Both the position numbers and the translations under genes were made by a program. A stretch of DNA of 41,876 bases, from contig CACMQH010000008.1 of assembly GCA_902615805.1 (NCBI GenBank), positions 1 through 41,876 of the forward strand, in the 5' to 3' direction. This DNA is from Rhodospirillaceae bacterium (lineage in GTDB: Bacteria > Pseudomonadota > Alphaproteobacteria > TMED109). A model generated the notes under the pieces. The model did no database searches and was not told the origin of the DNA. It worked only from the letters and a program-made list of their open reading frames with translations. Below are positions 4,206-27,085 of this stretch, one piece after another (the first letter of the stretch is position 1; each line of letters begins with the position of its first letter).

Positions 4206-5117
4206 ATGGTCTATACTGATAACATTAAACAATTACTTAGAAATTATGAAAATACAAATGCCGGTATAAAATCTAACTTAGCAAAAATTCTTATGAACGG
4301 CAAGCTTGGGGGAACTGGAAGATTATTAATTCTTCCTGTAGATCAGGGTCATGAACATGGTCCTGACAAGTCTTTTATAAAAAACCCTGATGCTTATGAT
4401 CCATCATATCATTATAATTTAGCAATAGAAGCAGGGTTAAGTGCATATGCTGCTCCATTAGGTTTTCTAGAGGCAGGAGCTGAAACTTTTGCTGGACAAA
4501 TACCTACAATTTTAAAAATTAATAGTTCTAATTCACTAATAGGTGTTAAAAATCAATCTAAAAACGGTACAGTAAAAGAAGCTTTGAGACTTGGGTGTAC
4601 CGCTGTAGGTTTTACTATTTATCCAGGATCAGATCATCAGTATGAAATGATAGAAGAGTTTAAAGAGATATCCTTAGAGGCAGCAGAATATGGATTACCT
4701 TCAGTTTTATGGTCTTATCCTAGAGGGCCTGAGATAAGCAAGGAAGCAGAAACGAGTATTGATACCATAAGTTATGCAGCACATATTGCAGCTTTATTGG
4801 GAGCACATATTATTAAAGTAAAACCGCCTACTTCTTTAATCTCAGAAAGTAGTTTGAGGGAAAACTACAATGCTCTAATTAACCTAAATTCTTTATCTGA
4901 AAGAATAAAACATATTAAAAAGTGTGCTTTCAACTCTAAAAGAATTGTAGTTTTTTCAGGTGGAAATGCTAAGGGCGATGAGGAAATTCTGACAGAAATA
5001 AAACAAATCAAGGATGGAGGAGGTAATGGTTCCATTATAGGAAGAAATTCTTTTCAGCGGTCTAAAAAACAAGCTTTAAGTCTTTTAAATAAAATAATAG
5101 AAATATATAAAAATTAA
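4206..5117 (+). CDS. fbaB: Class I fructose-bisphosphate aldolase (FbaB/DhnA type)
   Basis: Cleaves or forms fructose-1,6-bisphosphate from DHAP and glyceraldehyde-3-phosphate through a Schiff base, without a metal. The 303-residue protein has the DhnA-type signature near the N-terminus (LPVDQGHEHGP) and a TIM-barrel strand HIIKVKPPT, whose K204 or K206 is the expected Schiff-base lysine. The C-terminal phosphate-binding part reads VVFSGGNAKGDEE followed by GGNGSIIGRNSFQR. It lacks the zinc histidine pattern of class II aldolases. AGGAG at 4196-4200 lies 5 bases before the ATG. It completes a tkt-gap-pgk-fba set and would also use DHAP made by the mtnA/aldolase pair near 20 kb. Confidence 0.93.
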   Translation: MVYTDNIKQLLRNYENTNAGIKSNLAKILMNGKLGGTGRLLILPVDQGHEHGPDKSFIKNPDAYDPSYHYNLAIEAGLSAYAAPLGFLEAGAETFAGQIPTILKINSSNSLIGVKNQSKNGTVKEALRLGCTAVGFTIYPGSDHQYEMIEEFKEISLEAAEYGLPSVLWSYPRGPEISKEAETSIDTISYAAHIAALLGAHIIKVKPPTSLISESSLRENYNALINLNSLSERIKHIKKCAFNSKRIVVFSGGNAKGDEEILTEIKQIKDGGGNGSIIGRNSFQRSKKQALSLLNKIIEIYKN

Positions 5118-7104: not shown

Positions 7105-7656
7105 ATGTCTTATATTTTTATAATATTTTTATTTTTTTTACTGTTTATGTCATCAATATTAAAGTCGGATAATGTAAAATTTAAGTATATTAATTTATCA
7201 AAAAATAATTTGCCCGAATCTAGATTATTAATAGACAGGCAAAAAGAAAAAATAGAGAATAAAGTTAAAGAAAAAAAAAAAAATAAAAATAAGTCAGAAA
7301 AAATAAATAAAAAAGAGCTTAAAAGTAAAAAAAAACCAGTTTTACAAAATAATCACAAGTTTAAAATTAATTTCATCCAAGAAGAGGAAAAACCTAGTGC
7401 AGAGGAAATAAAAATTTTTTACGATAACTTAATAAAACTTAACAAAAAAGGCAGTATAACTATAAAAGGTTATGCTCAGAAGAGGGAAAATGATAGTACC
7501 AGTAAGGTAAGAAGGCTTTCTTTAAAGAGAGCTTTATTTTTGAGATCTTTGCTTCTTGAAGAAAACTTTAGCATTACTCAAATTTATGTTAAGGCTCTAG
7601 GGCATGACAATGAATTAGAAGGCAGTAAAGATATAGTGATTATAACTAATAACTAA
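7105..7656 (+). CDS. Membrane-anchored protein with OmpA-like C-terminal domain
   Basis: A 183-residue protein when started at the ATG at 7105; an in-frame TTG at 7084 would overlap the previous gene by 14 bases and add seven residues. I prefer the ATG because the hydrophobic segment then begins at once. Residues about 3-20 form a signal anchor with no lipobox cysteine. Residues about 40-85 are very lysine-rich and probably unstructured. The last 75 residues resemble the OmpA/MotB peptidoglycan-associated domain: ITIKGYAQ, then LSLKRALFLRSLL, then IYVKALGHDNE, with a closing beta strand. The usual peptidoglycan-binding Asp/Arg pair is not obvious. It precedes two further envelope genes and probably works with them; the exact role is unknown. 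Confidence 0.72.
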   Translation: MSYIFIIFLFFLLFMSSILKSDNVKFKYINLSKNNLPESRLLIDRQKEKIENKVKEKKKNKNKSEKINKKELKSKKKPVLQNNHKFKINFIQEEEKPSAEEIKIFYDNLIKLNKKGSITIKGYAQKRENDSTSKVRRLSLKRALFLRSLLLEENFSITQIYVKALGHDNELEGSKDIVIITNN

Positions 7657-7702
7657 ATTAAATAATTATTTTTTTTAGGACATTTCTATAGTATTATAGA
7701 TT

Positions 7703-8737
7703 ATGTTTAATCATAATAGATATATTATAAAAATTTTATTATTTTTACTTATAATATTCTTATTATGTTTCTTTCTTCAAGATGAATTAAAAAAAACTTT
7801 TGTACATAATATAGAGCTAAACAGTACTATTCTATTAATGTTTTTCATAGGGTCTTTCATAGCCTTAAAAAATATTATAATTTTAAATAAAGAACAAAAA
7901 TGGCTGGTTAATTTCCTTAATAATAAAAAATCTAGTATTAATTTTGAACCTAACTTTTTAAATGATTTTAAAGAATTAAGTCATGATGATTTTTTTTTCG
8001 AAGACAAGATTAAAAATAGTATAGATAAGGTTATAGAAAAATTAGATAATGAAAGAGAATTATTGAAGTATATAACATCTTTACTAATCTTTTTAGGTCT
8101 TATAGGAACTTTTTGGGGTTTACTGAAAACTATTGACTCTGTAGGTCTTACAATAAAAAGTTTGAGCATAGATGAAGCTAATATTGTAACTAATTTTATG
8201 AATCTAAAGAATGGCTTAAATGAACCTTTATCGGGTATGGGAACAGCATTTTCTTCATCACTCTTCGGTTTAGCAGGATCATTATGTTTAGGTTTAATTG
8301 ATTTGGTAACTGGTAGAGCACAAAATGATTTTATAACAGCCCTTGAAAAAAAGGTTATGAAAAAGAAGCCTAATCTTAATACTGATAATAATAATAAGGA
8401 AACAGGCAAAGAATATATGCAAGCTCTTCTTTTTCAAACAATTGATTCTTTAAATAACTTAGAAAAATTCATTATGAAAAGCGAACAAAGTAGAAAAAAT
8501 TTTGAAGATTTGATAGTAGAGTCTAGCAAAGTTATGGTAAAAATTAATAATGAAATAAGTATTAGAGTAGGACAATATAATAAAAATGAATTAGCAAATG
8601 TTGACTCATTGAATAAAATAGAGGAGCAACTAAGAGGGCTAAGGGAACAAATTAATAATAAAAATAATAACAACAATGATGATTTAGCAAAAGAGATTCA
8701 AATTCTTGCAAAAACTATTTCTCTAATGAATAAATGA
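7703..8737 (+). CDS. MotA/TolQ/ExbB-family proton channel protein
   Basis: A 344-residue inner-membrane protein of the MotA/TolQ/ExbB family, which forms proton channels that drive periplasmic partners. Four membrane segments are visible: about 8-26, 42-60, 127-150 and 178-205. The last two carry the family signature, with FLGLIGTFWGLLKTI and then GMGTAFSSSLFGLAGS. The cytoplasmic charged loop of true flagellar MotA is not recognisable. Instead there is a long charged C-terminal tail (about 225-344) with an Asn/Lys repeat-like stretch and predicted coiled coil. The MotB/OmpA-like partner begins 9 bases downstream. This pair recurs in alphaproteobacteria and is often auto-annotated as MotA or ExbB. 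Whether it powers a flagellum or an envelope process cannot be told from sequence. Confidence 0.85.
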   Translation: MFNHNRYIIKILLFLLIIFLLCFFLQDELKKTFVHNIELNSTILLMFFIGSFIALKNIIILNKEQKWLVNFLNNKKSSINFEPNFLNDFKELSHDDFFFEDKIKNSIDKVIEKLDNERELLKYITSLLIFLGLIGTFWGLLKTIDSVGLTIKSLSIDEANIVTNFMNLKNGLNEPLSGMGTAFSSSLFGLAGSLCLGLIDLVTGRAQNDFITALEKKVMKKKPNLNTDNNNKETGKEYMQALLFQTIDSLNNLEKFIMKSEQSRKNFEDLIVESSKVMVKINNEISIRVGQYNKNELANVDSLNKIEEQLRGLREQINNKNNNNNDDLAKEIQILAKTISLMNK

Positions 8738-8746
8738 TATAATCTA

Positions 8747-9805
8747 ATGAGTAGAAAAAAAATAGGTTTAATAAATATTTGGCCTGGTTTTGTTGATGCA
8801 ATTTCTACACTTTTGTTAGTTTTTGTTTTTTTATTGGTTGTCTTAATGATATCAGAAAATTTTTTAACACAATCTTTAACTGGAAAAAATACTGCTTTAG
8901 ATAATTTAAGAGAGAAACTTCAATCTCTTGAATTAAACATAAAAGATAGCTCAGAAAAAAATAAAAATTTATCTAACTTATTGTTTGAATTAAATAAAGA
9001 ATTAGAAAAACTAAAATTAGATAAACAAGACGTAGAATCAAGCTTAAAAGAAGAAAATATTAAAAATAAAAATTTAACTTTAAATATTACTGATCTAGAA
9101 AATAAAATTATTAAATTAGTTGATCAATTGGGACTGGAAAAATTAAAAACAACAAAACAAAAAACTATAAATTCAGATTTGAATTTGACTATAAATGATT
9201 TAAATAAGAATATTATTTCATTAAATAATGAATTACAAGGGGTTCAAAGATCACTTGAGCAAACTGATAAAGATAATAAAGAAAAGGATTTAGAGATTAG
9301 TAATTTAGGTAGTAAACTAAATGAAGCTTTAAAGGAAAAAGTGGGAGAACTAGAAGGTTATAGATCAGAGTTTTTTGGAAAATTAAAAAAAATAATCGGA
9401 GAAGAAAAAGAGATTAATATAGTAGGTGATAGATTTGTTTTACAATCTGAGGTCTTTTTTCAATCTGGATCTGCAAAAATAGGAAATGATGGGATTAAAA
9501 AGGTAGAAGATATAACAGAAATTTTAATTTCTATAACTAACAAAATTCCTAAAAATATAAACTGGCTTATTCAAGTGGAGGGACATACTGATAATATTCC
9601 TATATCAACTGAGCAATACCCATCAAATTGGGAACTTTCTACTGCTAGAGCCATTGCAGTAGCTAAAATTATGATGAAAAATGGAGTGCCTTCGGATAAA
9701 ATTAATGTAGCGGGTTACGGAGAACATAAACCTCTTTTAGAAAATAATAATTCTACAAATAGAGAAAAGAATCGTAGAATTGAATTAAAACTAACTCAAC
9801 CCTAA
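8747..9805 (+). CDS. MotB/OmpA-like peptidoglycan-binding channel partner
   Basis: A 352-residue partner of the preceding channel protein. The N-terminus has one membrane segment (about 14-38) starting PGFVDAIST; D17 occupies the place of the proton-binding aspartate of MotB. Residues about 45-200 are a long coiled coil rich in Leu, Lys and Glu heptads, far longer than the MotB linker. The last 130 residues are a complete OmpA-C domain, with the strand FFQSGSAKI, then VEGHTDNIPI, WELSTARAIAV, VAGYGEHKP and NREKNRRIEL. These contain the peptidoglycan-contacting Asp and Arg. The architecture fits an energised inner-membrane to cell-wall link. It could be a flagellar stator, but the coiled-coil length argues for an envelope-maintenance or Tol-like role. 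Confidence 0.87.
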   Translation: MSRKKIGLINIWPGFVDAISTLLLVFVFLLVVLMISENFLTQSLTGKNTALDNLREKLQSLELNIKDSSEKNKNLSNLLFELNKELEKLKLDKQDVESSLKEENIKNKNLTLNITDLENKIIKLVDQLGLEKLKTTKQKTINSDLNLTINDLNKNIISLNNELQGVQRSLEQTDKDNKEKDLEISNLGSKLNEALKEKVGELEGYRSEFFGKLKKIIGEEKEINIVGDRFVLQSEVFFQSGSAKIGNDGIKKVEDITEILISITNKIPKNINWLIQVEGHTDNIPISTEQYPSNWELSTARAIAVAKIMMKNGVPSDKINVAGYGEHKPLLENNNSTNREKNRRIELKLTQP

Positions 9806-10047: not shown

Positions 10048-10953
10048 ATGCAATTGTATGAAAAAAAATCTATGATGATAGATTTAAAAAAACATAAAAG
10101 TTTTTTAGATAAGAATATACAAAGATATATAAAAACTCTAGATGCTCCTAAAGAAATAAAAAATATAATGGCTTATGCAGTTTTAGGTGGAGGTAAAAGA
10201 ATTAGACCATTTTTACTTGCAGAAACTGCTAAATTATATGGGATAAATTCTAGCGTTTATAAGTATCCTTGTATGGCAGTTGAATTAGCGCATTGTTTTT
10301 CATTAGTTTATGATGATTTGCCATGTATGGATAATGACGATTTAAGAAGAGGAAAGGCTACAGTACATAAAGCCTTTAATGAAGCTAATGCTTTGCTGGG
10401 TGGAGCATCATTATTAGTTTACTCATTTAAGCTTTTGAGTCTAAATTCCTTTAAAATTAATATTGAAGATAAACTAAAAATAATAAATAATTTTTCTGAT
10501 GTTACTGGCGCTGAAGGGGTATTATCTGGGCAATATTTAGATTTATTAGCTGAAAATAAAAAGTTTAGATTAACTTTAAATAATTTTAAAGAAATTCAAA
10601 AAAAGAAAACTAGCTTATTAATTGCATTTTGTACTCTTACAGGTGCCATTATAGGTAAAGCAACTAAAAAAGAGCAAAAAGATATGTTTGATATAGGACT
10701 ATTGATTGGTACATTATTTCAAATTCAAGATGATATTTTAGATCAAGAAGGTAATGAAGAAGAGATGGGAAAAAAAGTACGTAAGGATAAAGATCTTAAT
10801 AAAGCAACTATTATAAGACTCAAAGATATAAACTATGCAAAAAAAGAAGTTATAAAAGTAGGTTCAAAAATTAAAAAAAAGCTTTTATTAATAAATAAAA
10901 ATACTGAAAAATTAATTAAGCTAACAAATTTTTTGATGTATAGAACCAGCTAA
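10048..10953 (+). CDS. ispA: Short-chain polyprenyl diphosphate synthase (farnesyl/geranyl type)
   Basis: Condenses isopentenyl diphosphate with allylic primers to make geranyl and farnesyl diphosphate for quinones, undecaprenol and other isoprenoids. The product has 301 residues. The substrate-binding GGGKRIRP is at 48-54. The first aspartate-rich motif is DDLPCMD at 89-95, followed by DLRRGKATVH. The second is DDILD with D228, D229 and D232. The residues ahead of the first motif are bulky (SLVYDD), consistent with a C15 product, though chain length is inferred. The start ATG at 10048 is weakly supported; an internal ATG a few residues on is possible. In many alphaproteobacteria dxs lies next; here tlyA follows at once, overlapping by one base. 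Confidence 0.92.
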   Translation: MQLYEKKSMMIDLKKHKSFLDKNIQRYIKTLDAPKEIKNIMAYAVLGGGKRIRPFLLAETAKLYGINSSVYKYPCMAVELAHCFSLVYDDLPCMDNDDLRRGKATVHKAFNEANALLGGASLLVYSFKLLSLNSFKINIEDKLKIINNFSDVTGAEGVLSGQYLDLLAENKKFRLTLNNFKEIQKKKTSLLIAFCTLTGAIIGKATKKEQKDMFDIGLLIGTLFQIQDDILDQEGNEEEMGKKVRKDKDLNKATIIRLKDINYAKKEVIKVGSKIKKKLLLINKNTEKLIKLTNFLMYRTS

Positions 10954-11696
10954 TGAAGGTAAAGGAAAGACTAGATAAAATATTAGTTAATAAAGGTTTT
11001 GTGGAAAGCTCTAGCAAGGCAAAGGCACTTATAATGTCTGGCAAAATTATAGTTAATGGAAAAAAAATTGAAAAGGCAGGAGTTAAGTTTTCAGAAAATA
11101 TTGATATTAGAATTTTAAATAAACAACATGAATGGGTTTCAAGAGGAGGAATCAAACTTTCGGATGCTATTAAAAAGTTTGACATAGAAATTAATGAAAA
11201 AGTCTGCATTGATATTGGAGCGTCTACAGGAGGTTTTACTGAGGTATTATTAAAAAATAATGCAAAACATGTATACTCTATAGACGTTGGTAGAGGGCAA
11301 TTAGATTGGAAATTAACAACTAATAAAAAAGTAACCATATTTGATAGAACCAATGCTAGAAATGTTGACCTTGCAGAAATTGATGAAAATATAGAAGTAA
11401 TTACGTGTGACCTTTCCTTTATAAGTATTAAAAAAGGCCTATCAAAAATAATTGAATTTAATAAAAATAATATAAGTCTTATAGCATTGGTTAAGCCACA
11501 ATTTGAATTATCAAAAGATAAAATTGGTAAAAATGGGATAGTATCTGAACCAAATTATAGAAATGAAGCAGTTAAAGATATAAGTGATTGGTTAATTACC
11601 AAAAATTGGAAAATAAATGGCATTATAGAAAGTTGCATAACAGGAACAAAAGGAAACCAAGAGTATTTTATTTATTGTACAAAAAAAGAAATCTAA
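10953..11696 (+). CDS. tlyA: TlyA-family rRNA methyltransferase / hemolysin-like
   Basis: A 247-residue TlyA-type protein. The N-terminal 60 residues are an S4 RNA-binding domain (RLDKILVNKGFVESSSKAKA...). The rest is an FtsJ-like methyltransferase domain: SRGGIKLSDA, then the SAM-binding CIDIGASTGGFTEVLL, SIDVGRGQLDW and LVKPQFE. In mycobacteria TlyA 2'-O-methylates 16S and 23S rRNA; the hemolysin name is historical. The start overlaps the ispA stop by one base (TAATG), so the genes are coupled. At the 3' end its TAA overlaps the TAG of the convergent AhpD-like gene by four bases (CTAA at 11693-11696). Methyltransferase identity is sound; the rRNA target is inferred from the family. Confidence 0.92.
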   Translation: MKVKERLDKILVNKGFVESSSKAKALIMSGKIIVNGKKIEKAGVKFSENIDIRILNKQHEWVSRGGIKLSDAIKKFDIEINEKVCIDIGASTGGFTEVLLKNNAKHVYSIDVGRGQLDWKLTTNKKVTIFDRTNARNVDLAEIDENIEVITCDLSFISIKKGLSKIIEFNKNNISLIALVKPQFELSKDKIGKNGIVSEPNYRNEAVKDISDWLITKNWKINGIIESCITGTKGNQEYFIYCTKKEI

Positions 11697-12256
11697 AAAT
11701 AATATTCGGCATTAGGTACCATATTTGTCCCAGAGGCAATTCTGTTAGTCATATTAAAAAAAGCAGCAACTTCTATTATTTCTAAAATCTGAAATTCATT
11801 AAATTTCATTTTTCTTAGTTTATTTCTATCATCTTCATTTATTTTGTGAGAGTTTTGGGTAAGTTTATAGACAAAATCTAACATCATTTTATGCTTTTTA
11901 GAAATTTGAGCTACCTCATAATTAATTAATATATTTTTTGCTTTTATTGGATCTTTGAGAAGTTTTCCTAAAGTGTAGCTATGAGAAACACAACAATATA
12001 AACATCTATTAGTAGTAGACACAACTACTGCTATCATTTCTTTTTCAATTTTTGACAAATAATTATCATCTTGCATCAATCTATTATAAAAAATATTAAA
12101 AGCATCAAACTTTTTTTTATCAATAGTATTGGTTTTTAATATATTTGGTATTAAGCCTAACTTTTCTTTACAAATTTTAAAATAATTTTGAACATCCTTG
12201 TCTTTTAAATTACTTTTAATAGGAATTTTTAATGACCATAATTTTTTATTTTTCAT
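11693..12256 (-). CDS. AhpD/carboxymuconolactone-decarboxylase-like peroxidase-related protein
   Basis: A 187-residue all-helical protein of the AhpD-like group often named uncharacterised peroxidase-related enzyme. The diagnostic redox motif is C85-L-Y-C88 followed by H92 (CLYCCVSH), as in AhpD proteins that use a Cys pair and a nearby His for hydroperoxide reduction. An extra C89 follows directly. The N-terminal LGLIPNILK and the later helices around ILEIIEVAAFFNMTNRIA also fit. The ATG has AAAGG about 9 bases upstream. It lies just upstream of aroC on the same strand with a 16-base spacer. Peroxidase activity is inferred only; no electron-donor partner is adjacent. Confidence 0.83.
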   Translation of the reverse strand: MKNKKLWSLKIPIKSNLKDKDVQNYFKICKEKLGLIPNILKTNTIDKKKFDAFNIFYNRLMQDDNYLSKIEKEMIAVVVSTTNRCLYCCVSHSYTLGKLLKDPIKAKNILINYEVAQISKKHKMMLDFVYKLTQNSHKINEDDRNKLRKMKFNEFQILEIIEVAAFFNMTNRIASGTNMVPNAEYYF

Positions 12257-12272
12257 ATAAATACCTTTAATT

Positions 12273-13343
12273 TTAAACTTGCGTCTTTCTTCTTAAAAAA
12301 TGATCAGCTAATACTAATGCCACCATAGCTTCTGCTATTGGTACACATCTTATGCCAACACACGGGTCATGTCTTCCTTTTGTTCTTATTGTAGTATTTT
12401 TATTTTTAGTATTTACGGTTTTTTGAGTTTTCAATATAGAAGAAGTAGGCTTTACAGCAATTGAACATACTATATTTTGCCCAGAAGAAATTCCTCCTAA
12501 AATACCACCTGCATTATTAGATAAAAATTTTACTTTACCTTTTTTATCAATTACCATTTCATCTGAATTTTGTTCTCCTTGCATATTGACCACATCAAAC
12601 CCTGAACCAATTTCTACCCCTTTAACAGCATTGATTCCCATTAGGGCTGAAGCTAGTTCTGCATCTAGTTTACCATATATAGGTTCTCCTAATCCTACTG
12701 GGACCCCTTTTGCTACAACTTTGATTAAAGCTCCACAAGATGAACCAGATTTTCTTATTGATAACAAATAATTTTCCCATTCACTTAATACTGAGGAGTC
12801 AGGACAGAAAAGATGATTTTTTTTTTGAAAATCTTTCTCCCATTTTTGTTTTTTTATTTTTTTATTTCCAATTTGAGTTACTGCTCCCGTAATTGATATT
12901 TTTTTTCCTAAGATTAGTCTTGCTATTGCACCTGCAGCTACTCTCATAGCAGTCTCCCTGGCACTAGATCTTCCACCTCCCCTATAATCTCTTATTCCAT
13001 ATTTTTTAAAGTATGTATAATCTGCATGAGCAGGCCTAAACTTTTCTTTAATATCTGAATAGTCTTTACTTTTGTGATCAGTATTTTTAATTATAAGACT
13101 TATAGGTGTTCCCGTTGAAAATCCATTAAATACCCCTGATACGATATTTATCTTATCCTTTTCTTTTCTTTGGGTAACAAATTTAGAACTTCCAGGTGAA
13201 CGCATATCTAAAAATTTTTGAATATAACTTTCAGATATTTTTATATTTGAAGGGACACCATCAAGTACTGCACCAATTTCCGCTCCGTGACTTTCTCCCC
13301 AAGTAGTTAGCTTTAATATTTTTCCTATACTATTGTAGGACAT
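12273..13343 (-). CDS. aroC: Chorismate synthase
   Basis: Last step of the shikimate pathway: trans-elimination of phosphate from EPSP to chorismate, needing reduced FMN. The product has 356 residues, the usual bacterial size. The N-terminal signature is LKLTTWGESHG. FMN- and substrate-site motifs include RPAHADYTY, YRGGGRSSARETAMRVAAGAIA, NAVKGVEIGSG, NNAGGILGGISSG and the closing GRHDPCVGIRCVPIAEAM. All match the family. The start lies one base after the fabI stop, so fabI and aroC form an operon, an order common in alphaproteobacteria. No irregularity is seen. Confidence 0.97.
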   Translation of the reverse strand: MSYNSIGKILKLTTWGESHGAEIGAVLDGVPSNIKISESYIQKFLDMRSPGSSKFVTQRKEKDKINIVSGVFNGFSTGTPISLIIKNTDHKSKDYSDIKEKFRPAHADYTYFKKYGIRDYRGGGRSSARETAMRVAAGAIARLILGKKISITGAVTQIGNKKIKKQKWEKDFQKKNHLFCPDSSVLSEWENYLLSIRKSGSSCGALIKVVAKGVPVGLGEPIYGKLDAELASALMGINAVKGVEIGSGFDVVNMQGEQNSDEMVIDKKGKVKFLSNNAGGILGGISSGQNIVCSIAVKPTSSILKTQKTVNTKNKNTTIRTKGRHDPCVGIRCVPIAEAMVALVLADHFLRRKTQV

Positions 13344-13344
13344 T

Positions 13345-14160
13345 TTAAACTTTACTTATATCAGGAGCATTAACATTTTTCATTCCTACTACATTATACC
13401 CAGCATCTACGTGCAGTATTTCACCAGTAGTTCCACTACTCAATTCAGATAATAAATAAACTGATGCTCCTCCAACGTCATCTAGGGTAATATTTCTTTC
13501 GAGTGGAGCATTATACTCATTCCATTTTAAAATATACCTGAAGTCCGAAATTCCTGAAGCGGCCAGTGTTCTCACTGGACCAGCAGAAATAGCATTTACT
13601 CTGAATCCTTTTTTTCCTAAGTCAACTGCAAGATACTTTACGCTTGTTTCTAATGCAGATTTAGCTATTCCCATAACATTATAATGAGGAATTACTTTTT
13701 CAGCTCCATAATATGATAGAGTTAAAAAATTTGCTTTTTCATTCATAAATGGAAGGGCTTCTCTAATAAGTGCAGTAAAGGAATAACAAGAAATTTCCAT
13801 AGTATTCAAGAAATTATTTTTAGTTGTATCTACATAATCTCCTTTAAGTTCCTCTTTGTCTGAGAATGCTACCGCATGAACTATAAAATCTAAATTACCA
13901 AAGTCTTGAGATAAATTTTTAAAAAAACTTGGTATTTTTTCATAATTTTGTATATCAAACTCATAAATATTATTTGAGTTTACTTTTGTTGCTAACGGAG
14001 TAATTCTTTTTTTAAGAGCATCATTTTGATATGTCAGTGCGAGTTCTCCACTATGCTGGTGAATATAATTTGCTATTCCCCACGCAAGTGATCTTTCATT
14101 TGCAATACCTACTATTAATCCTTTTTTTCCTTTTAGGATAGAACTTTTTTTTTCTTCCAT
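13345..14160 (-). CDS. fabI: Enoyl-ACP reductase (NADH), FabI type
   Basis: Reduces enoyl-ACP in the last step of each type II fatty-acid elongation cycle. The product has 271 residues. The short-chain-dehydrogenase fold has the FabI-type cofactor loop LIVGIANERSLAWGIA near residues 15-30. The catalytic residues are Y150, Y160 and K167, with the spacing of the E. coli enzyme (Y146, Y156, K163). The substrate loop RVNAISAGPVRTLAASGI is typical. It heads the fabI-aroC-AhpD-like run on the minus strand. The 54-base, very A+T-rich gap to the divergent gene at 14215 probably holds promoters for both directions, though no clear box stands out. Confidence 0.96.
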   Translation of the reverse strand: MEEKKSSILKGKKGLIVGIANERSLAWGIANYIHQHSGELALTYQNDALKKRITPLATKVNSNNIYEFDIQNYEKIPSFFKNLSQDFGNLDFIVHAVAFSDKEELKGDYVDTTKNNFLNTMEISCYSFTALIREALPFMNEKANFLTLSYYGAEKVIPHYNVMGIAKSALETSVKYLAVDLGKKGFRVNAISAGPVRTLAASGISDFRYILKWNEYNAPLERNITLDDVGGASVYLLSELSSGTTGEILHVDAGYNVVGMKNVNAPDISKV

Positions 14161-19773: not shown

Positions 19774-20853
19774 ATGCTTATTAATAATGAATCATATAGA
19801 ACAATTTGGTTTGATAAAAAAAAAGAAGAAGTTAAGATAATTGATCAAACCAAACTACCTTTTTATTTAGAAATAGTTTCTTTAAATAATTTAGAAGATG
19901 TAATTAATGCTATTAATCTTATGAAAGTCAGAGGAGCGCCATTAATAGGAGCGACAGCTGCTTATGGCGTTTATCTAGCTTACAGAGATTTAAAAGACAA
20001 AAATAAAATAATTGATCAAGCAAATAAAATTAAAAATACTAGACCTACGGCAATAAATCTTTTTTGGGCAGTTGATAATATGCTTTCATTAATAAAAGAT
20101 AATTTATCGCATTCTGCAATAGAGAAAAGTCTTTTAGATCAGGCTAATAAAATTTGTGAAGATGACATAAATAGATGTAAGAAAATTGGAGAATTTGGTT
20201 TTAAAATTATTGAGTCATTACATAATAAAAAGGGAAAAGTTAATGTTCTTACTCATTGTAATGCAGGATGGCTAGCAACTATTGATTGGGGAACTGCTAC
20301 GGCACCAATTTATTTTGCTAAAAAAAATAATTTAAATATTCATGTTTGGGTTGATGAGACAAGACCTAGAAACCAAGGAGCTTCTTTAACAAGTTATGAA
20401 TTAAATAATGAAAATATAGCAAATACGATTATTACTGATAATGCTGCTGGTATTTTGATGCAAAGAGGAGAAATAGATATATGTATTGTTGGAGCTGATA
20501 GGGTAATAGTTTCTGGAGATGTAATTAATAAAATAGGAACATTTTTAAAAGCTATAGCAGCAAAAGAATTTAATATTCCATTTTATGTAACCATACCTTT
20601 GAATACTATAGATTGGAAAACAAAAAATTTTAGAGATGTAGAAATAGAAGAGAGAAGTAGTAATGAATTAAGAAAAATTAAAGGTCTAGATGAAAGAAAT
20701 AATTTAAGAACAGTTGACGTTTATCCAAAGGATAGTAAGGCGTATAATCCTGCTTTTGATATTACGCCTAAGCAATTTGTAACAAAACTTATAACAAATA
20801 AAGGAATTATAAATGCTAATATTAATGAAATCCTAAACTTAAAAAATGAATAA
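19774..20853 (+). CDS. mtnA: Methylthioribose-1-phosphate isomerase
   Basis: Isomerises 5-methylthioribose-1-phosphate (and, in some bacteria, 5-deoxyribose-1-phosphate) to the ribulose form. The product has 359 residues. Catalytic C162 (THCNAG) and D242 (VGADRV) are both present. Other signatures are MKVRGAPLIGATAAYG, TRPTAINLFWA, the long DETRPRNQGASLTSYEL and GTFLKAIAAK. The ATG lacks a visible ribosome site. It is divergent from the SDR with a 54-base gap. The next gene, a class II aldolase, overlaps it by 8 bases. No other Met-salvage genes (mtnB dehydratase, mtnC, mtnD) are seen in the window, which favours the DHAP-shunt variant over full methionine salvage. Confidence 0.95.
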   Translation: MLINNESYRTIWFDKKKEEVKIIDQTKLPFYLEIVSLNNLEDVINAINLMKVRGAPLIGATAAYGVYLAYRDLKDKNKIIDQANKIKNTRPTAINLFWAVDNMLSLIKDNLSHSAIEKSLLDQANKICEDDINRCKKIGEFGFKIIESLHNKKGKVNVLTHCNAGWLATIDWGTATAPIYFAKKNNLNIHVWVDETRPRNQGASLTSYELNNENIANTIITDNAAGILMQRGEIDICIVGADRVIVSGDVINKIGTFLKAIAAKEFNIPFYVTIPLNTIDWKTKNFRDVEIEERSSNELRKIKGLDERNNLRTVDVYPKDSKAYNPAFDITPKQFVTKLITNKGIINANINEILNLKNE

Positions 20854-21505
20854 TATTAATAAAAAAAGAGAGATAGTAAAATATTCTAAATTATTTTCAA
20901 CTGAAAGTTTTTCACCAATTAGATCTGGTAATATCTCAATAAGAAGTAAGCTTAATAATAAGGAAGGTTTTTTTATTTCACCGTCTGGAAAAATAAATTT
21001 AGAACTAACTATTAAAGATATAGTATTTGTATCTTTAAATGGAGATATAGAAAAACATAAGAAACCTTCTTCAGAGTGGAGGTTCCATTTAGATTTATAT
21101 AATTCTACTGAATGTAATGCAATCGTTCATGCTCACTCAAAATTTGCTGTAATTTGTTCATGCTTATATAAAAAAATACCATCTTTCCATTATATGATTG
21201 CTTTAACTGGAAAAAAAAGTATCAAAGTTGCAAATTACGCTTTATTTGGTAGTAAAAAACTATCTATTAATATATTGAATGCTATGAAAGGATCAAAAAG
21301 CTGTCTGATTTCTAACCATGGTCAAATTTCAATAGGTAATAATTTACCAGATGCATATGAATTAGCTAATGAAGTTGAACTATTATGTGAGTATTATTAT
21401 TATTGTAGATTACAAAAACACCCTAAAATTTTAAGTAATAAAGAGATGCAGAGTGTCCTTAATAAAATAAAAAGTTATAAAAGTAAAAATGGTGCCCTCA
21501 GGTAG
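20846..21505 (+). CDS. Class II aldolase/adducin family protein, candidate DHAP-shunt aldolase
   Basis: A 219-residue zinc aldolase of the fuculose-phosphate type. The phosphate-binding RSGNISIR is at about 26-33. The catalytic glutamate is E77 in SSEWRFH, with zinc ligands H95 and H97 (VHAHS) and H158 (NHGQ). All active-site residues expected of the family are present. Overlap with mtnA makes 5-methylthioribulose- or 5-deoxyribulose-1-phosphate the likely substrate, giving DHAP plus an aldehyde, as described for Ald2/DrdA of the DHAP shunt. MtnB dehydratase is a related fold and the main alternative. The last five codons (GALR and the TAG stop) lie inside the 3' part of an oppositely oriented tRNA gene. 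Confidence 0.85.
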   Translation: MNNINKKREIVKYSKLFSTESFSPIRSGNISIRSKLNNKEGFFISPSGKINLELTIKDIVFVSLNGDIEKHKKPSSEWRFHLDLYNSTECNAIVHAHSKFAVICSCLYKKIPSFHYMIALTGKKSIKVANYALFGSKKLSINILNAMKGSKSCLISNHGQISIGNNLPDAYELANEVELLCEYYYYCRLQKHPKILSNKEMQSVLNKIKSYKSKNGALR

Positions 21506-21564
21506 AATTGAACTACCATCTGACCCTTACCAAGGGTCTGTAATAACCATTATACTATGAGGGC
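21490..21564 (-). tRNA. tRNA-Thr (anticodon GGT)
   Basis: On the minus strand the sequence folds as a full cloverleaf of 72 bases plus an encoded CCA (21490-21492). The acceptor stem pairs GCCCTCA with TGAGGGC and the discriminator is A. A short D-stem (GTA/TAC) surrounds AATGGTTAT. The anticodon stem GACCC/GGGTC encloses the loop TTGGTAA, giving anticodon GGT (threonine ACC/ACT). The T-arm is GGTAG-TTCAATT-CTACC. A T-rich tract follows the CCA directly and may end transcription. The 3' 16 bases overlap, in antisense, the end of the aldolase gene. Confidence 0.96.
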
Positions 21565-21610
21565 TCTATATAATTAATATAACAAGTTTTTATCTTTAAT
21601 AAATGTTAAT

Positions 21611-22486
21611 ATGATAAAAGAAAAGAAAGAATTCAAAGTATCTGTTGTTATTCCAACTTATAACAGAGTAGCTTATTTAAGCAGAGCCATAAATTCAGTA
21701 TTAAAGCAATCTTATCCAGTAAATGAAATTATAGTAATAGATAATGATTCTACTGATCAAACTTTAAGTTTTATTAAAAAAAAATTTAATAGTATAAGAG
21801 TAATTATTGAAAAAAAAAGAGGAGTAAGTTTTGCAAGAAACTTAGGTATAAAAAATTGCAAATATAATTGGATAGCTTTTCTTGACTCTGATGACGAATG
21901 GATAACAGATAAAATAGAGAAACAATTTATATTATTAAAAAAAAGTAATTTTAAATATCAGTTTATTCATACTAATGAAATATGGATTAAAAATGGAATA
22001 TTAAAAAATCAAAAGAAAAAACACTTAAAGAGAGGAGGTTATATTTTTGAGGATTGTTTAGATATTTGTAAGATATCTCCTTCTAGTGTTTTGATTAAGA
22101 AAGAATTATTTGATAAATATGGATTATTTGATTATAAGTTCAAAGTTTGTGAGGATTATGAACTTTGGTTAAGGATTACTAGTAAAATAAAAATTGGTTA
22201 TTTAGATAAACCTTTAATTAAAAAGTATGGGGGACATAAAGGGCAGCTTTCCGCAAAGTATTGGGGTATTGATAGATATAGAATTAAAGCTCTAGAAAAG
22301 ATTTTAATAAATTATAATTTAAAGAAGCAACAAAAATTAAAAGTTTTAGAGTATTTATTAAAGAAAATTAATATTATACTTTTAGGGGCAATTAATAGAA
22401 ATAACAAAAGAATATTTAATATGTATATTAAAAAAAAACTTTTATGGCTGAATTATAATTATTATGTCAAAAACAAAAATAATTAA
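21611..22486 (+). CDS. Glycosyltransferase family 2 protein
   Basis: A 291-residue GT-A-fold glycosyltransferase with no membrane segment. Near the N-terminus is SVVIPTYNRVAYLSRAI, then the nucleotide-binding VIDNDSTDQT, the GVSFARNLGI stretch and the metal-binding DSDD in IAFLDSDDEW. The acceptor-side ED motif is VCEDYELWLRI, as in typical family 2 enzymes. The C-terminal 60 residues are very basic and may bind membrane or nucleic acid. It starts 46 bases past the tRNA and overlaps the nucleosidase-like gene by 23 bases, so it is part of a four-gene unit with the radical SAM and SDR genes. The sugar donor and acceptor are unknown. This conserved-looking coupling is unusual for a cell-surface glycosyltransferase. 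Confidence 0.88.
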   Translation: MIKEKKEFKVSVVIPTYNRVAYLSRAINSVLKQSYPVNEIIVIDNDSTDQTLSFIKKKFNSIRVIIEKKRGVSFARNLGIKNCKYNWIAFLDSDDEWITDKIEKQFILLKKSNFKYQFIHTNEIWIKNGILKNQKKKHLKRGGYIFEDCLDICKISPSSVLIKKELFDKYGLFDYKFKVCEDYELWLRITSKIKIGYLDKPLIKKYGGHKGQLSAKYWGIDRYRIKALEKILINYNLKKQQKLKVLEYLLKKINIILLGAINRNNKRIFNMYIKKKLLWLNYNYYVKNKNN

Positions 22487-23276
22487 TTTTTTAGTAGCTT
22501 TAAAGCATGAAGCACTCCCAATAATAGATTATTTTGAATTAACTCTTAATGACAAAAAATATAGGAATATCTTTAGCAATATGGAAAAGAATATTTTTCT
22601 TATTATTACAGGTATAGGAATACAAAGTGCTAAAAAAGCTGTTACTAAATTAAAACAACTAAATAAAAATAAAAATGATATTTGGGTTAATATAGGTATA
22701 GCCGGTCATAAAACATTTAAGGTAGGATCTATTTATGAGATTAAAAAAGTAATTTCTAGCAATAATAAAAATACTTTTTTCACAAACTCTTTTTATAATA
22801 AAGTTCCAACAAGTACTATATGCTGTGTTAATAAAGAAGAAAAAAAATATAATAATAAATACCTTTATGATATGGAGAGTTATGGTTTTTTAGAGGCTTT
22901 AGATAGTTTAACTATAAAAGAAAATATTTTTATTTTTAAGATAGTTTCAGATAATTTACAATTTAAGCCAAAGAGTTATAAAAATTTTGCTATATCTTTT
23001 ATTGCAAAACACATTAGGAAAATAGATACTATTCTTGATAAATATAGAAATAAACCTCCAGAGAGTTTTTATGATATAACCTTAATGCTAAATATAATAA
23101 AAAATAAATATCATGTAACATTTTATAACAAAAAAAAATTGGAAAAAATCTTAACAAAAATTTTTATAATAAAAAGTCAAAAAGAAATTAAAAATGACGT
23201 CTTAGTTTCAAAATCATTAAATGGCTTAATAAAAAAATATGAAAGCTACCTAACAAAATATATCTTGAAAATCTAA
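22464..23276 (+). CDS. MTA/SAH nucleosidase-like phosphorylase-family protein
   Basis: A 270-residue divergent member of the purine nucleoside phosphorylase/MTA-SAH nucleosidase superfamily. Visible motifs are the N-terminal VALKHEALP, the ribose-site glycine stretch ITGIGIQSA, VNIGIAGH, the nucleoside-binding DMESYGFLEAL (the DMEaa site) and the late KIVSDN, whose Asp is the expected catalytic acid. A lysine-rich C-terminal extension of about 60 residues lies beyond the normal fold. It overlaps the glycosyltransferase and is one base upstream of a radical SAM gene. Plausible substrates are 5'-deoxyadenosine, MTA or a base-modified nucleoside. HpnG of hopanoid synthesis is a relative that works on a radical SAM product. 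The exact reaction cannot be stated. Confidence 0.75.
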   Translation: MSKTKIINFLVALKHEALPIIDYFELTLNDKKYRNIFSNMEKNIFLIITGIGIQSAKKAVTKLKQLNKNKNDIWVNIGIAGHKTFKVGSIYEIKKVISSNNKNTFFTNSFYNKVPTSTICCVNKEEKKYNNKYLYDMESYGFLEALDSLTIKENIFIFKIVSDNLQFKPKSYKNFAISFIAKHIRKIDTILDKYRNKPPESFYDITLMLNIIKNKYHVTFYNKKKLEKILTKIFIIKSQKEIKNDVLVSKSLNGLIKKYESYLTKYILKI

Positions 23277-23277
23277 A

Positions 23278-24255
23278 ATGACTAAAATTATTTATATAGA
23301 ACGTGAAATAAAGGATCATTTTAGAACCAAATTAATATGTAGTAAAGTTAGTAATCCAGAAATTATTATAATTGATAGGTTTAGTGAGATTTTTAATAAA
23401 AGAAATCAAAGTTTTAAACTTCAAAAGAATGATCCAGCATTAATATTAGCAAAAAAATATAAAAACCTGATTCATAAAACACCTGAGAATTACGGAATAG
23501 GAAATAAATATAATTACTATTTTTCTTATATGTATAATTGTCTCTTTGATTGCAAGTATTGTTTTTTACAAGGTATGTATTCTTCTGCAAACTACTTAGT
23601 ATTTGTTAATTATGAAGATTATTATGAAGAAATAAAAAAAATTTCTATTACTAATAAAAAAAAGAATATTACATTATTTTCAGGATATGATTGCGACTCT
23701 CTAGCTTTTGAGTCAATTTCAAATTTTATGTCTTATTTAATAAAAAAAATGCCAAAATATGAAAATATAGAATTAGAAATAAGAACCAAAAGCACATACT
23801 CTAGAATATTTTCAAAAAATATAATTAAAAATGTTATAATTGCTTATAGTTTTACTCCTGAAAAATTCTCAAACAAATATGAAAAAGGTGTTCCTAGTGT
23901 AGATAAAAGATTAAAGGTTATAAAAAGACTTTCAAATTTAGGTTGGAAATTAGGCTTTCGTTTCGACCCTGTTATTATTTATGATGGTTGGCAAGAAGAC
24001 TATAAAGAGTTATTTGTTAAAATTTTTCAAAACATTGATATTAATAATTTGCATTCAATAACATTCGGTAAATTAAGGTTTCCAGAGACTATTTATAAAA
24101 AGTTAATAAAAGAAAATATGTCAGAAAGTCTTTTTTTTAATTTAGAAAAGAAAAGAAATTCCTATGAAAGTAGCAATGAAAATAATATTGAGAGTTTTCT
24201 TATAGAAAACCTAACTAAATTCATTGATGAAAGAAAAATTTTTTTTAATAATTAG
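23278..24255 (+). CDS. Spore-photoproduct-lyase-like radical SAM protein
   Basis: A 325-residue protein of the SPL branch of radical SAM enzymes. The [4Fe-4S] motif is C88-x3-C92-x2-C95 (NCLFDCKYC), in the SPL arrangement. The C-terminal half keeps SPL landmarks: SFTPEKFSNKYEKGVPSVDKR, LGFRFDPVIIYDGW and the ITFGKLRFPE region. In spore photoproduct lyase a hydrogen-donor cysteine (C141 in Bacillus subtilis) sits in a CTSD stretch. By hand alignment that position is Y137 here, with C139 two residues away. Genuine DNA photoproduct repair is therefore uncertain, and spores are not expected in this type of organism. It is tightly packed between the nucleosidase-like gene and an SDR. Confidence 0.85.
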   Translation: MTKIIYIEREIKDHFRTKLICSKVSNPEIIIIDRFSEIFNKRNQSFKLQKNDPALILAKKYKNLIHKTPENYGIGNKYNYYFSYMYNCLFDCKYCFLQGMYSSANYLVFVNYEDYYEEIKKISITNKKKNITLFSGYDCDSLAFESISNFMSYLIKKMPKYENIELEIRTKSTYSRIFSKNIIKNVIIAYSFTPEKFSNKYEKGVPSVDKRLKVIKRLSNLGWKLGFRFDPVIIYDGWQEDYKELFVKIFQNIDINNLHSITFGKLRFPETIYKKLIKENMSESLFFNLEKKRNSYESSNENNIESFLIENLTKFIDERKIFFNN

Positions 24256-24257
24256 TT

Positions 24258-24953
24258 ATGAATAAAATTATTATTACTGGCACATCTAGAGGCATAGGAA
24301 ATGCTATTGCTAAAAATCTTTTGAAGCAAAATATTACCGTTATTGGTATATCAAGAAAACATACCATAAAACATAAAAACTATTTTGCTATATCGTTTGA
24401 CTTAAATGATTTCAAAAACATTAAAAATATTTTAGATGATATTATCTTTAATCATAAAAAAATAGACGGTATTATAAGTAGTGCCGGTTACGGGGTCTTT
24501 GAAAACCTAGAAAACTTAAAGGAAAAAGAAGTTATAGATTTTTTTAATGTGAATTTATTAGCTCATATACTAATTTCAAAGACTTTAGTTTCACATTTTA
24601 AGAAAAAGAAAACAGGACATTTTATATTTATTGGTTCAGAGGCTTCTTTAAAAGGCAACCAAAAGTCTACTCTTTACTCTGCAGCCAAACATGGTTTAAT
24701 GGGTTTTGTTAAATCCTTTAGAGAAGAGTGTAATAAGTCTGAAATTAGAGTTACAATTATAAATCCAGGAATGGTAGATAGCTCTTTTTTTAAAAAATTA
24801 AAATTTTCTCCAGGAAAAAGTATTAAAAACTCAATTAAATTAGCCGATATAGCAGAACTAGTTTTTTTTATCTTAAAAAGCAATCCAAATATCAACTACA
24901 ATGATATTTACTTGAGTCCAATAAAAAAAGTTATAAATTTTAAAAATAATTAA
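24258..24953 (+). CDS. Short-chain dehydrogenase/reductase of the radical SAM cluster
   Basis: SDR of 231 residues with cofactor motif TGTSRGIG starting at residue 7, SSAGYG at the NAG position, and the catalytic Ser (IFIGSEAS) and YSAAK pair. The second-strand end reads GISRKH, with basic residues that favour NADPH. It starts 2 bases after the radical SAM gene and ends the four-gene unit. A reductase here could act on an aldehyde or ketone formed by the neighbouring enzymes, for instance the aldehyde released by the DHAP-shunt aldolase; this is a guess from context. After its stop come 80 bases holding a sigma-54-like promoter for the next gene. Confidence 0.88.
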   Translation: MNKIIITGTSRGIGNAIAKNLLKQNITVIGISRKHTIKHKNYFAISFDLNDFKNIKNILDDIIFNHKKIDGIISSAGYGVFENLENLKEKEVIDFFNVNLLAHILISKTLVSHFKKKKTGHFIFIGSEASLKGNQKSTLYSAAKHGLMGFVKSFREECNKSEIRVTIINPGMVDSSFFKKLKFSPGKSIKNSIKLADIAELVFFILKSNPNINYNDIYLSPIKKVINFKNN

Positions 24954-26390: not shown

Positions 26391-26400
26391 GCTCTTTTTT
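26379..26400 (+). terminator. Possible intrinsic terminator after the fliG unit
   Basis: AAAAAAGAG, a 4-base loop TAAG, then CTCTTTTTT form a 9-pair stem ending in a T run, at the stop codon of the small cysteine protein. The stem holds only two G-C pairs, so it is modest, but position and T-tract fit an end of the fliG transcript. It also argues against starting the next gene at the in-frame TTG at 26399. Confidence 0.45.
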
Positions 26401-26437
26401 GATTGACCTTAAGATTACCAAGTATTATTCTTATTTT

Positions 26438-27085
26438 ATGGCGGGTAGAGGGAAAGAAGAAGAAGGTTATTCAGTAGAAGCCCAAGAAAATATGGGCGTT
26501 GCTTTAGAAGAGTTTAAAGAGTCTCTAATTCCAATTGGCTCAGAGGAGGCAAATAAAAACATCTTCGCAACAATAAAAATAATGGTTAAGGGTGTCAGAA
26601 GAAGACTAGTGGACTTAGGAAATGTTGATGCTCCTGAGGGCCCATTAAAAATCCAACTAATGATTTTTAACAAAGAGCATATACCTCTAATCATAGAACA
26701 ATTAAAAGAAGAGGGGTTCAAACCTCGTACTGATGCCGGATCTCAATATGTTAAAGTTGATGTTCCTCCACCAACAAGATTACAATTAATGGATGTAGCT
26801 TCTGATGTAGATAGAAGAACTAAGTCTTGTATAGGTAAAATTAATAAAATACGAAGCAATACTGCCATAAGAATTACAAAGGCTGTAGAAAATGAATTTA
26901 TAGACCCAAGAACAGCAAGTATTGCAAATAAAAAAATAGAGAAAAACTTCATTAAGTTTGAAACAGATGCAATCAAAGCTGGGATGTTAAAAAAAATTGA
27001 TATCTTGGGGAAATGGTTTTCTCCTGAGAATGAAAGAGAAAAAAATTTGATGGCACAAATTAAGAAAAAAACAAAGCAGGAATAG
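26438..27085 (+). CDS. Divergent ribosome-recycling-factor-like protein
   Basis: A 215-residue protein from the ATG at 26438. An in-frame TTG at 26399 lies inside a hairpin and is less likely. Residues 69-190 align by eye with the ribosome recycling factor: the strand LKIQLMIFNKEHIP, then DAGSQYVKVDVPPPTRLQL (RRF: SDIRVPLPPLTEERR), then a long helix with KINKIRSNTAIRITKA (RRF: VAVRNVRRDANDKVKA). The N-terminal helix NMGVALEEFKESL also fits. The iRTGRA region and hinge domain II are shortened. The true frr normally lies in the pyrH-frr-uppS cluster, so this looks like a paralogue. It may bind ribosomes in a specialised state; the function is unknown. Confidence 0.62.
   Translation: MAGRGKEEEGYSVEAQENMGVALEEFKESLIPIGSEEANKNIFATIKIMVKGVRRRLVDLGNVDAPEGPLKIQLMIFNKEHIPLIIEQLKEEGFKPRTDAGSQYVKVDVPPPTRLQLMDVASDVDRRTKSCIGKINKIRSNTAIRITKAVENEFIDPRTASIANKKIEKNFIKFETDAIKAGMLKKIDILGKWFSPENEREKNLMAQIKKKTKQE

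Follow-up and report, generated by a model that had tools for sequence, protein, structure and literature searches.

A nucleosidase-like protein coupled to a spore photoproduct lyase-like radical SAM protein: a candidate adenosylation and de-adenylation pathway in marine and human-associated bacteria

A contig from an alphaproteobacterium filed as Rhodospirillaceae bacterium (CACMQH010000008.1, our C8) carries four closely packed genes on its forward strand, and the function of these genes is the subject of this report. The window is the entire contig of 41,876 nucleotides, and it belongs to a genome of 1.18 Mb that is estimated to be 76% complete. The unit opens with a GT2-family glycosyltransferase (GT, 21611–22486; PF00535, 104 bits), which overlaps by 23 nt a divergent protein that resembles methylthioadenosine/S-adenosylhomocysteine (MTA/SAH) nucleosidases, was placed by comparing a profile with solved structures and bears a C-terminal extension (NUC, 22464–23276). 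There follow a radical S-adenosylmethionine (SAM) protein of the spore photoproduct lyase (SPL) superfamily (23278–24255; PF20903, 72 bits against a cut-off of 27) and a short-chain dehydrogenase/reductase (SDR, 24258–24953; PF00106, 139 bits). Upstream lie mtnA, an aldolase gene that overlaps it, and a tRNA gene. A model's reading of the DNA letters, the original prediction, had described this layout, and open reading frame calls (longest frames of at least 60 or at least 70 amino acids) and family scans placed every one of these features where it had put them. A scan for promoter and terminator consensus sequences gave no excess over shuffled sequences.

A conserved pair of nucleosidase-like and radical SAM proteins

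The four genes from 21611 to 24953 form a real unit, and one that goes beyond chance, because their order is kept in related genera and because NUC and SPL adjoin each other in other families as well. The SPL protein was found in 9 of 28 genomes of the window's taxonomic order, all of them of its family (f1). In genera g1, g4 and g5 the series GT–NUC–SPL–SDR is flanked by mtnA–aldolase on one side and fliG on the other, wherever the contigs are long enough to show it (a contig end limits the view in G004, G007 and G019). Two genomes of one genus, G016 and G017, which are 61% and 57% complete, yielded no SPL, and the contig of G016 stops inside the aldolase gene. The closest named relatives are two further 'Rhodospirillaceae bacterium' genomes, AG-422-C09 and AG-919-A04, which we take to be marine single-cell genomes and whose NUC proteins are 90% and 89% identical to that of the window. 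The suspicion that the four genes might be neighbours in this genome only is therefore false: the adjacency search found the unit conserved across genomes.

The core of the unit is the NUC–SPL pair. A class-wide profile search matched 10 of 385 genomes at 1e-10; seven of these, the window's genome among them, have the type linked to NUC, and in a phylum sample 3 of 398 genomes matched, the two besides the window's own having no NUC nearby. In family f24 the order is GT–NUC–SPL (SPL in 3 of 6 genomes), and in family f9, where 22 of 32 genomes have SPL, a methyltransferase-like gene below Pfam cut-offs precedes NUC–SPL in 17 of the 19 loci scanned and is absent from L112 and L115. Searches of phage and plasmid collections with tblastn recovered true Bacillus splB, two unannotated human-faecal scaffolds filed as phage, and a Fusobacterium vincentii entry of 2.1 Mb classed as a plasmid. 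The protein of this entry (L101) is a 623-aa fusion of NUC and SPL with an SDR gene downstream. One gut scaffold (L100) has NUC–SPL–SDR and the other (L099) has SDR, a degenerate NUC remnant and SPL. In all, the pair is present in three families of the window's class, on two human-faecal scaffolds (one with NUC degenerate) and in the Fusobacterium fusion.

The two outer genes are distributed differently. GT is an accessory of the f1 and f24 lineages, with 53–94% identity to seven f1 relatives and a place beside NUC in all three f24 loci. The window's SDR carries TGxxxGIG and YxxxK motifs, and the SDRs beside SPL in L099, L100 and L101 reach 100–136 bits against a profile of the unit's SDR, compared with 57–75 bits for other matches in the loci scanned.

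NUC reads from its sequence as a divergent relative of the MTA/SAH nucleosidases that has kept their putative catalytic residues. The Pfam scan, run to E 0.1, gave the window's protein no match to PNP_UDP_1, and against the NCBIfam 'nucleosidase' model the protein reaches 28 bits (cut-off 129); one relative (L065) lies just above the PNP_UDP_1 cut-off, at 26.7 against 25.1 bits, and two others (L067, L100) lie below it. When 11 NUC sequences, that of the window among them, were combined into a profile, it matched MTA/SAH nucleosidases of solved structure at E 3.3e-8. Across 35 sequences N76, M137 and D163 are present in all, E138 in the 34 that could be read there, and E16 in all 33 that have the N-terminus, the open reading frames of L035 and L036 lacking it and being left out of that count. 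The invariant Glu, Met-Glu and Asp align with the residues that we take to be catalytic in MTA/SAH nucleosidase. A weak, near-full-length match among solved structures is CT263 (E 0.002 and 0.04), which is presumably an aminofutalosine hydrolase. In L099 the NUC gene (7505–7987) has decayed to 160 aa, with the N-terminal part and the Met-Glu motif lost; its C-terminal part is retained beside SPL and SDR, which suggests that this part may have a role of its own.

The SPL-like proteins linked to NUC fall into a clade of 36 members with support of 91/92, under the tool's star threshold; one further protein of the same type, cut by a contig end (L041), was excluded from the tree. The cluster motif CxxxCxxC, at C88/C92/C95 in the window's protein, is kept in 36 of 36. 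All members also have Tyr in the column of Cys141 of SplB, and for this reason we speak of the tyrosine type, while the column of Tyr99 holds Phe in 29 of the 36. Cys139 of the window's protein was considered as a substitute lyase cysteine and rejected; other members have Ser, Thr or Ala there. In Bacillus subtilis SPL, the C141A or Y99F exchange leads to about one 5'-deoxyadenosine (5'-dA) per turnover, which the excerpted text of PMC3742179 reads as an absence of SAM regeneration. Because these relay mutants do not regenerate SAM and the clade has lost the relay cysteine, an SPL clade without the Cys141/Tyr99 relay would be expected to consume SAM.

The coupling of the two genes is close: 32 of the 36 SPL genes follow NUC at −8 to +2 nt. 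The remaining four are L100, where the genes overlap further under the longest-frame rule, the fusion L101, L099 with its degenerate NUC, and the f24 locus L063, with two genes between. In this last locus (10509–13551) a NodU-like carbamoyltransferase and a tetratricopeptide repeat (TPR) protein with a below-cut-off GT9 match, on the same strand, separate NUC from SPL. The 19 control loci gave no NUC match at E up to 1; among these loci, the members of the sets L121/L122, L124/L125 and L131/L133/L134 are identical or almost identical to each other. In 18 of the controls, which include viral contigs, true SplB and a Glu-type protein on a short contig (L069), the SPL protein bears Cys or Glu in the key column; L071 (G308), where no SPL frame was recovered, adds only a NUC-negative.

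A viral origin of the pair was considered and rejected: pattern-prefiltered scans of IMG/VR gave no tblastn-confirmed relative with profile A6 or with the SPL part of the Fusobacterium protein, and the 14 loci returned by the broader profile A7 had SPL proteins of other types and lacked NUC. Radical SAM proteins of the SPL superfamily are encoded on the viral contigs L121–L134; they belong to two other types, in which the Cys141 column holds Cys or Glu.

Candidate reactions and acceptors

We favour an adenosylation followed by the removal of adenine, a reading to which, as a whole, we give a probability of roughly 0.4. The SPL-like enzyme would consume SAM and most likely join the 5'-deoxyadenosyl radical to an acceptor; NUC would then hydrolyse the N-glycosidic bond, so that adenine is released and the pentose stays on the product; SDR would reduce (or oxidise) the freed aldose; and GT, or the methyltransferase-like protein in other lineages, may add lineage-specific decorations. 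We infer the order of these steps, the adenosyl transfer and the roles of SDR and GT. The reading is preferred by analogy, because the gene classes match those of hopanoid side-chain clusters and the logic matches that of MqnE/MqnB. Its parts differ in strength. It is likely that NUC has as its substrate a nucleoside which the SPL-like enzyme produces, and the coupling of a radical SAM protein to a nucleosidase-like protein, which the original prediction had proposed, is borne out by the Fusobacterium fusion, the retained catalytic residues and the 36-member clade. Adduct formation by SPL specifically is a tentative proposal; the fuller statement, that a tyrosine-type SPL subfamily of marine and human-associated bacteria adenosylates an acceptor and that its own NUC makes a ribosylated product which SDR finishes, is tentative to about the same degree.

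A number of observations weigh against this reading. We know of no member of the SPL superfamily that transfers adenosyl groups. Seven of the 36 SPL proteins, including those of Fusobacterium and the gut scaffolds, retain Tyr99; many in the set are closely related to one another, and the support of their clade stops short of the star. L099 retains SPL and SDR with its 160-aa NUC remnant, so NUC is not always required. Neither outer gene is core everywhere, as GT does not adjoin the pair in the f9, Fusobacterium and gut loci that were mapped, and the f9 and f24 loci showed no SDR of the unit's type. Several control loci are short (3.5–5 kb) or identical, which makes them weaker than 19 independent loci, and structure models built from three sequences were poor, with a mean predicted local distance difference test score of 38 for NUC and 36 for SPL. 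Finally, much of this pattern would also be expected if NUC were a dedicated 5'-dA hydrolase.

Such a hydrolase is the substance of the alternative that we rank close behind adenosylation, unlikely as we consider it: NUC would only clear by-product 5'-dA, while SPL performs hydrogen-atom chemistry on a sugar or nucleotide, possibly an epimerisation, dehydrogenation or rearrangement with the conserved Tyr as hydrogen donor. SPL itself abstracts hydrogen (PMC3742179, excerpt) and radical SAM enzymes are inhibited by 5'-dA (PMC6079011, excerpt). SDR and GT2 suit sugar chemistry, and the solved relatives of NUC are MTA/SAH nucleosidases. However, 28 of the 34 genomes with the unit have a PF01048 match of more than 100 bits outside it, and the two such proteins that were checked are MtnP, so general disposal of 5'-dA looks provided for elsewhere. 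The coupling and fusion of NUC and SPL would then need another reason, all the more as radical SAM enzymes, to our knowledge, usually do without a dedicated nucleosidase.

A second alternative concerns the product and is compatible with the adenosylation reading, namely that NUC and SPL build an unusual sugar which GT attaches to flagellin or to a cell-surface glycan. The unit adjoins fliG, flagellin is found in 9 of 9 f1 genomes with SPL against 1 of 19 without, and the carbamoyltransferase and TPR/GT9-like genes of the f24 locus L063 fit such chemistry. Yet the f1 genomes belong to related genera and represent few independent events, and the flagellin link, complete in f1, fails in f24, where none of six genomes has flagellin though three carry the unit; in f9 flagellin occurs in 19 of 22 genomes with SPL and in 10 of 10 without. 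Moreover, GT is not adjacent in most loci, and the annotated upstream genes in f9 are not glycan genes. We reject flagellin as a general link and hold the glycan explanation to be improbable.

Other acceptors and roles were also considered. Of the 34 genomes that carry the unit, 19 have squalene-hopene cyclase, distributed as 17 of 22 in f9, 2 of 3 in f24 and 0 of 9 in f1 (two of these nine being more than 90% complete), and hopene is unlikely as the acceptor in f1 because the cyclase was not found in any of those nine genomes. Several f9 genomes (for example G769, G771, G774 and G792) have another PF01048 gene beside the cyclase, apart from NUC, which is probably hpnG. A link to queuosine was set aside: in L065 queC, queD and a radical SAM gene are found close to the unit, and L064 has the same layout (L063 ends at a contig edge there), but none of these genes was seen next to the f1 and f9 units. 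Anti-phage defence was rejected, as none of the four unit proteins matched a PADLOC model at E up to 0.001. Elsewhere in the window, at 7703–9805 on the forward strand, a MotA/ExbB-like and OmpA-domain pair resembles the ZorA and ZorB models (best 50 and 83 bits; other Zorya genes were not looked for).

The neighbouring mtnA and aldolase genes

Directly upstream of the unit, mtnA (19774–20853, forward strand; TIGR00512, 401 bits against a cut-off of 279) encodes a methylthioribose/5-deoxyribose 1-phosphate isomerase and overlaps by 8 nt its partner, a class II (FucA/Ald2/DrdA-like) aldolase gene (20846–21505, forward strand; PF00596). A tRNA-Thr(GGT) gene (21490–21564) on the strand opposite to the unit covers the last 16 nt of the aldolase frame. 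The nearest solved structures of the aldolase are FucA (2e-39), and 6btd/6btg, deposited as 'fuculose phosphate aldolase' and in our understanding DrdA, match at 2e-31. Between tRNA-Thr or aldolase and GT, several relatives (L035, L037, L038, L040) have variable inserts that encode an acyltransferase, a MORN-repeat protein and below-cut-off TetR-like and NERD-like matches, making this gap a small insertion hotspot. On the other side of the unit, near fliG, a divergent ribosome-recycling-factor-like protein (26399–27085, forward strand; PF01765, 33.8 bits; TIGR00496, 25.6 of 149 bits) is retained in relatives and is possibly a second ribosome-recycling-factor paralogue.

The original prediction had joined these genes to the unit: the radical SAM by-product would be fed to the neighbouring MtnA and aldolase and recycled to dihydroxyacetone phosphate (DHAP) for the aldolase at 4206, a class I fructose-bisphosphate aldolase, with a kinase needed between NUC and MtnA should NUC be hydrolytic. 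We consider this very improbable, and mtnA and the aldolase gene to be ordinary, separate neighbours of the four genes. It is true that they adjoin the unit in f1 genomes wherever a contig spans both, and that enzymes of the MtnA/DrdI and Ald2/DrdA types convert 5-deoxyribose 1-phosphate (excerpts of PMC6079011 and PMC10986504). However, the window's genome encodes MtnP on another contig (C17), above the TIGR01694 cut-off, and with MtnA and the aldolase (the latter assigned by class only) it has all parts of the DHAP shunt, MtnP, MtnA and Ald2 being a known form of it (PMC10986504, excerpt). The shunt is thus complete without NUC, because the genome has its own MtnP, and the kinase is unneeded.

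The distribution of the genes points the same way. Among 66 genomes mtnA is present in 30 of 34 with SPL and in 27 of 32 without (Fisher p 0.73), independently of the unit, and in genera g2, g3, g6 and g7 of the window's family the mtnA–aldolase pair is present in genomes that yielded no SPL. In G035, the one genome of f9 that was examined, mtnP, mtnA and the aldolase gene stand together on contig C8 of that assembly (L048), with the unit on a different contig, C9; the three unit-bearing f24 genomes have mtnA beside a strong PF01048 match, on contigs other than the unit's. Neither mtnA nor such an aldolase was seen beside NUC–SPL in the mapped f9, f24, Fusobacterium and gut loci. The two genes therefore sit apart from the unit in the f24 and f9 genomes checked and beside it in f1. 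Of the first interpretation as a whole, the radical SAM–nucleosidase coupling and the conserved unit stand, and the join to the DHAP shunt falls away.

That the SPL-like protein, as a member of its superfamily, might be a DNA photoproduct lyase of surface-ocean bacteria is hardly credible, as the lyase cysteine is replaced in all 36 members, the window's protein reaches 84 bits against a cut-off of 400 for the NCBIfam lyase model TIGR04070, it is coupled to a nucleosidase, and the type is present in the anaerobe Fusobacterium.

Known systems and implications

The adenosylation reading has its nearest parallels in two known pathways. MqnE and MqnB of the futalosine pathway form an adenosyl adduct and then remove adenine, the same logic as proposed here, and CT263 is the weak solved match of NUC; on the other hand, no library scan filed SPL as MqnE, and mqn genes were not searched for. 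In hopanoid synthesis the radical SAM enzyme HpnH works with HpnG, and the cluster also holds a sugar epimerase, hpnA, and a glycosyltransferase, hpnB, both called elusive in function (PMC12583986, excerpt). The likeness lies in a radical SAM enzyme paired with an adenine-removing enzyme in a cluster with sugar-handling genes; the differences are that the unit's radical SAM enzyme belongs to the SPL superfamily and that f1 genomes with the unit yielded no cyclase.

The individual proteins likewise stand apart from their relatives. The unit's SPL shares superfamily, CxxxCxxC motif and Tyr97 with SplB, whereas it has Tyr at Cys141, usually Phe at Tyr99, and a nucleosidase partner. NUC shares sequence family and catalytic residues with MtnN/Pfs, but falls far below NCBIfam cut-offs, has a C-terminal extension in most members and is tied to one radical SAM enzyme. 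The neighbouring mtnA–aldolase genes and the distant mtnP correspond to the MtnP form of the DHAP (drd) shunt, of which the four-gene unit is not a part. All the window's core proteins and relatives scanned miss NCBIfam cut-offs, and at the level of listings no description of the NUC–SPL pair was found in the open-licence PMC literature. The logic of adenosylating and then de-adenylating is already known; for the enzyme subfamily, as for the fusion and the gene set, there appears to be no earlier description.

Even if NUC only clears 5'-dA, an unusual case of a nucleosidase fused to one radical SAM enzyme would have been found. If the adenosylation reading is true, the unit would represent a new type of reaction for the SPL superfamily and, next to HpnH/HpnG and MqnE/MqnB, a further natural pathway in which adenosylation is followed by the removal of adenine. 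Its sequence signature, by which it could be found, would then be an adjacent NUC combined with Tyr in the column of Cys141, and its predicted product would be a metabolite, lipid or glycan that bears a pentose, both in marine bacteria with small genomes and in Fusobacterium associated with humans.

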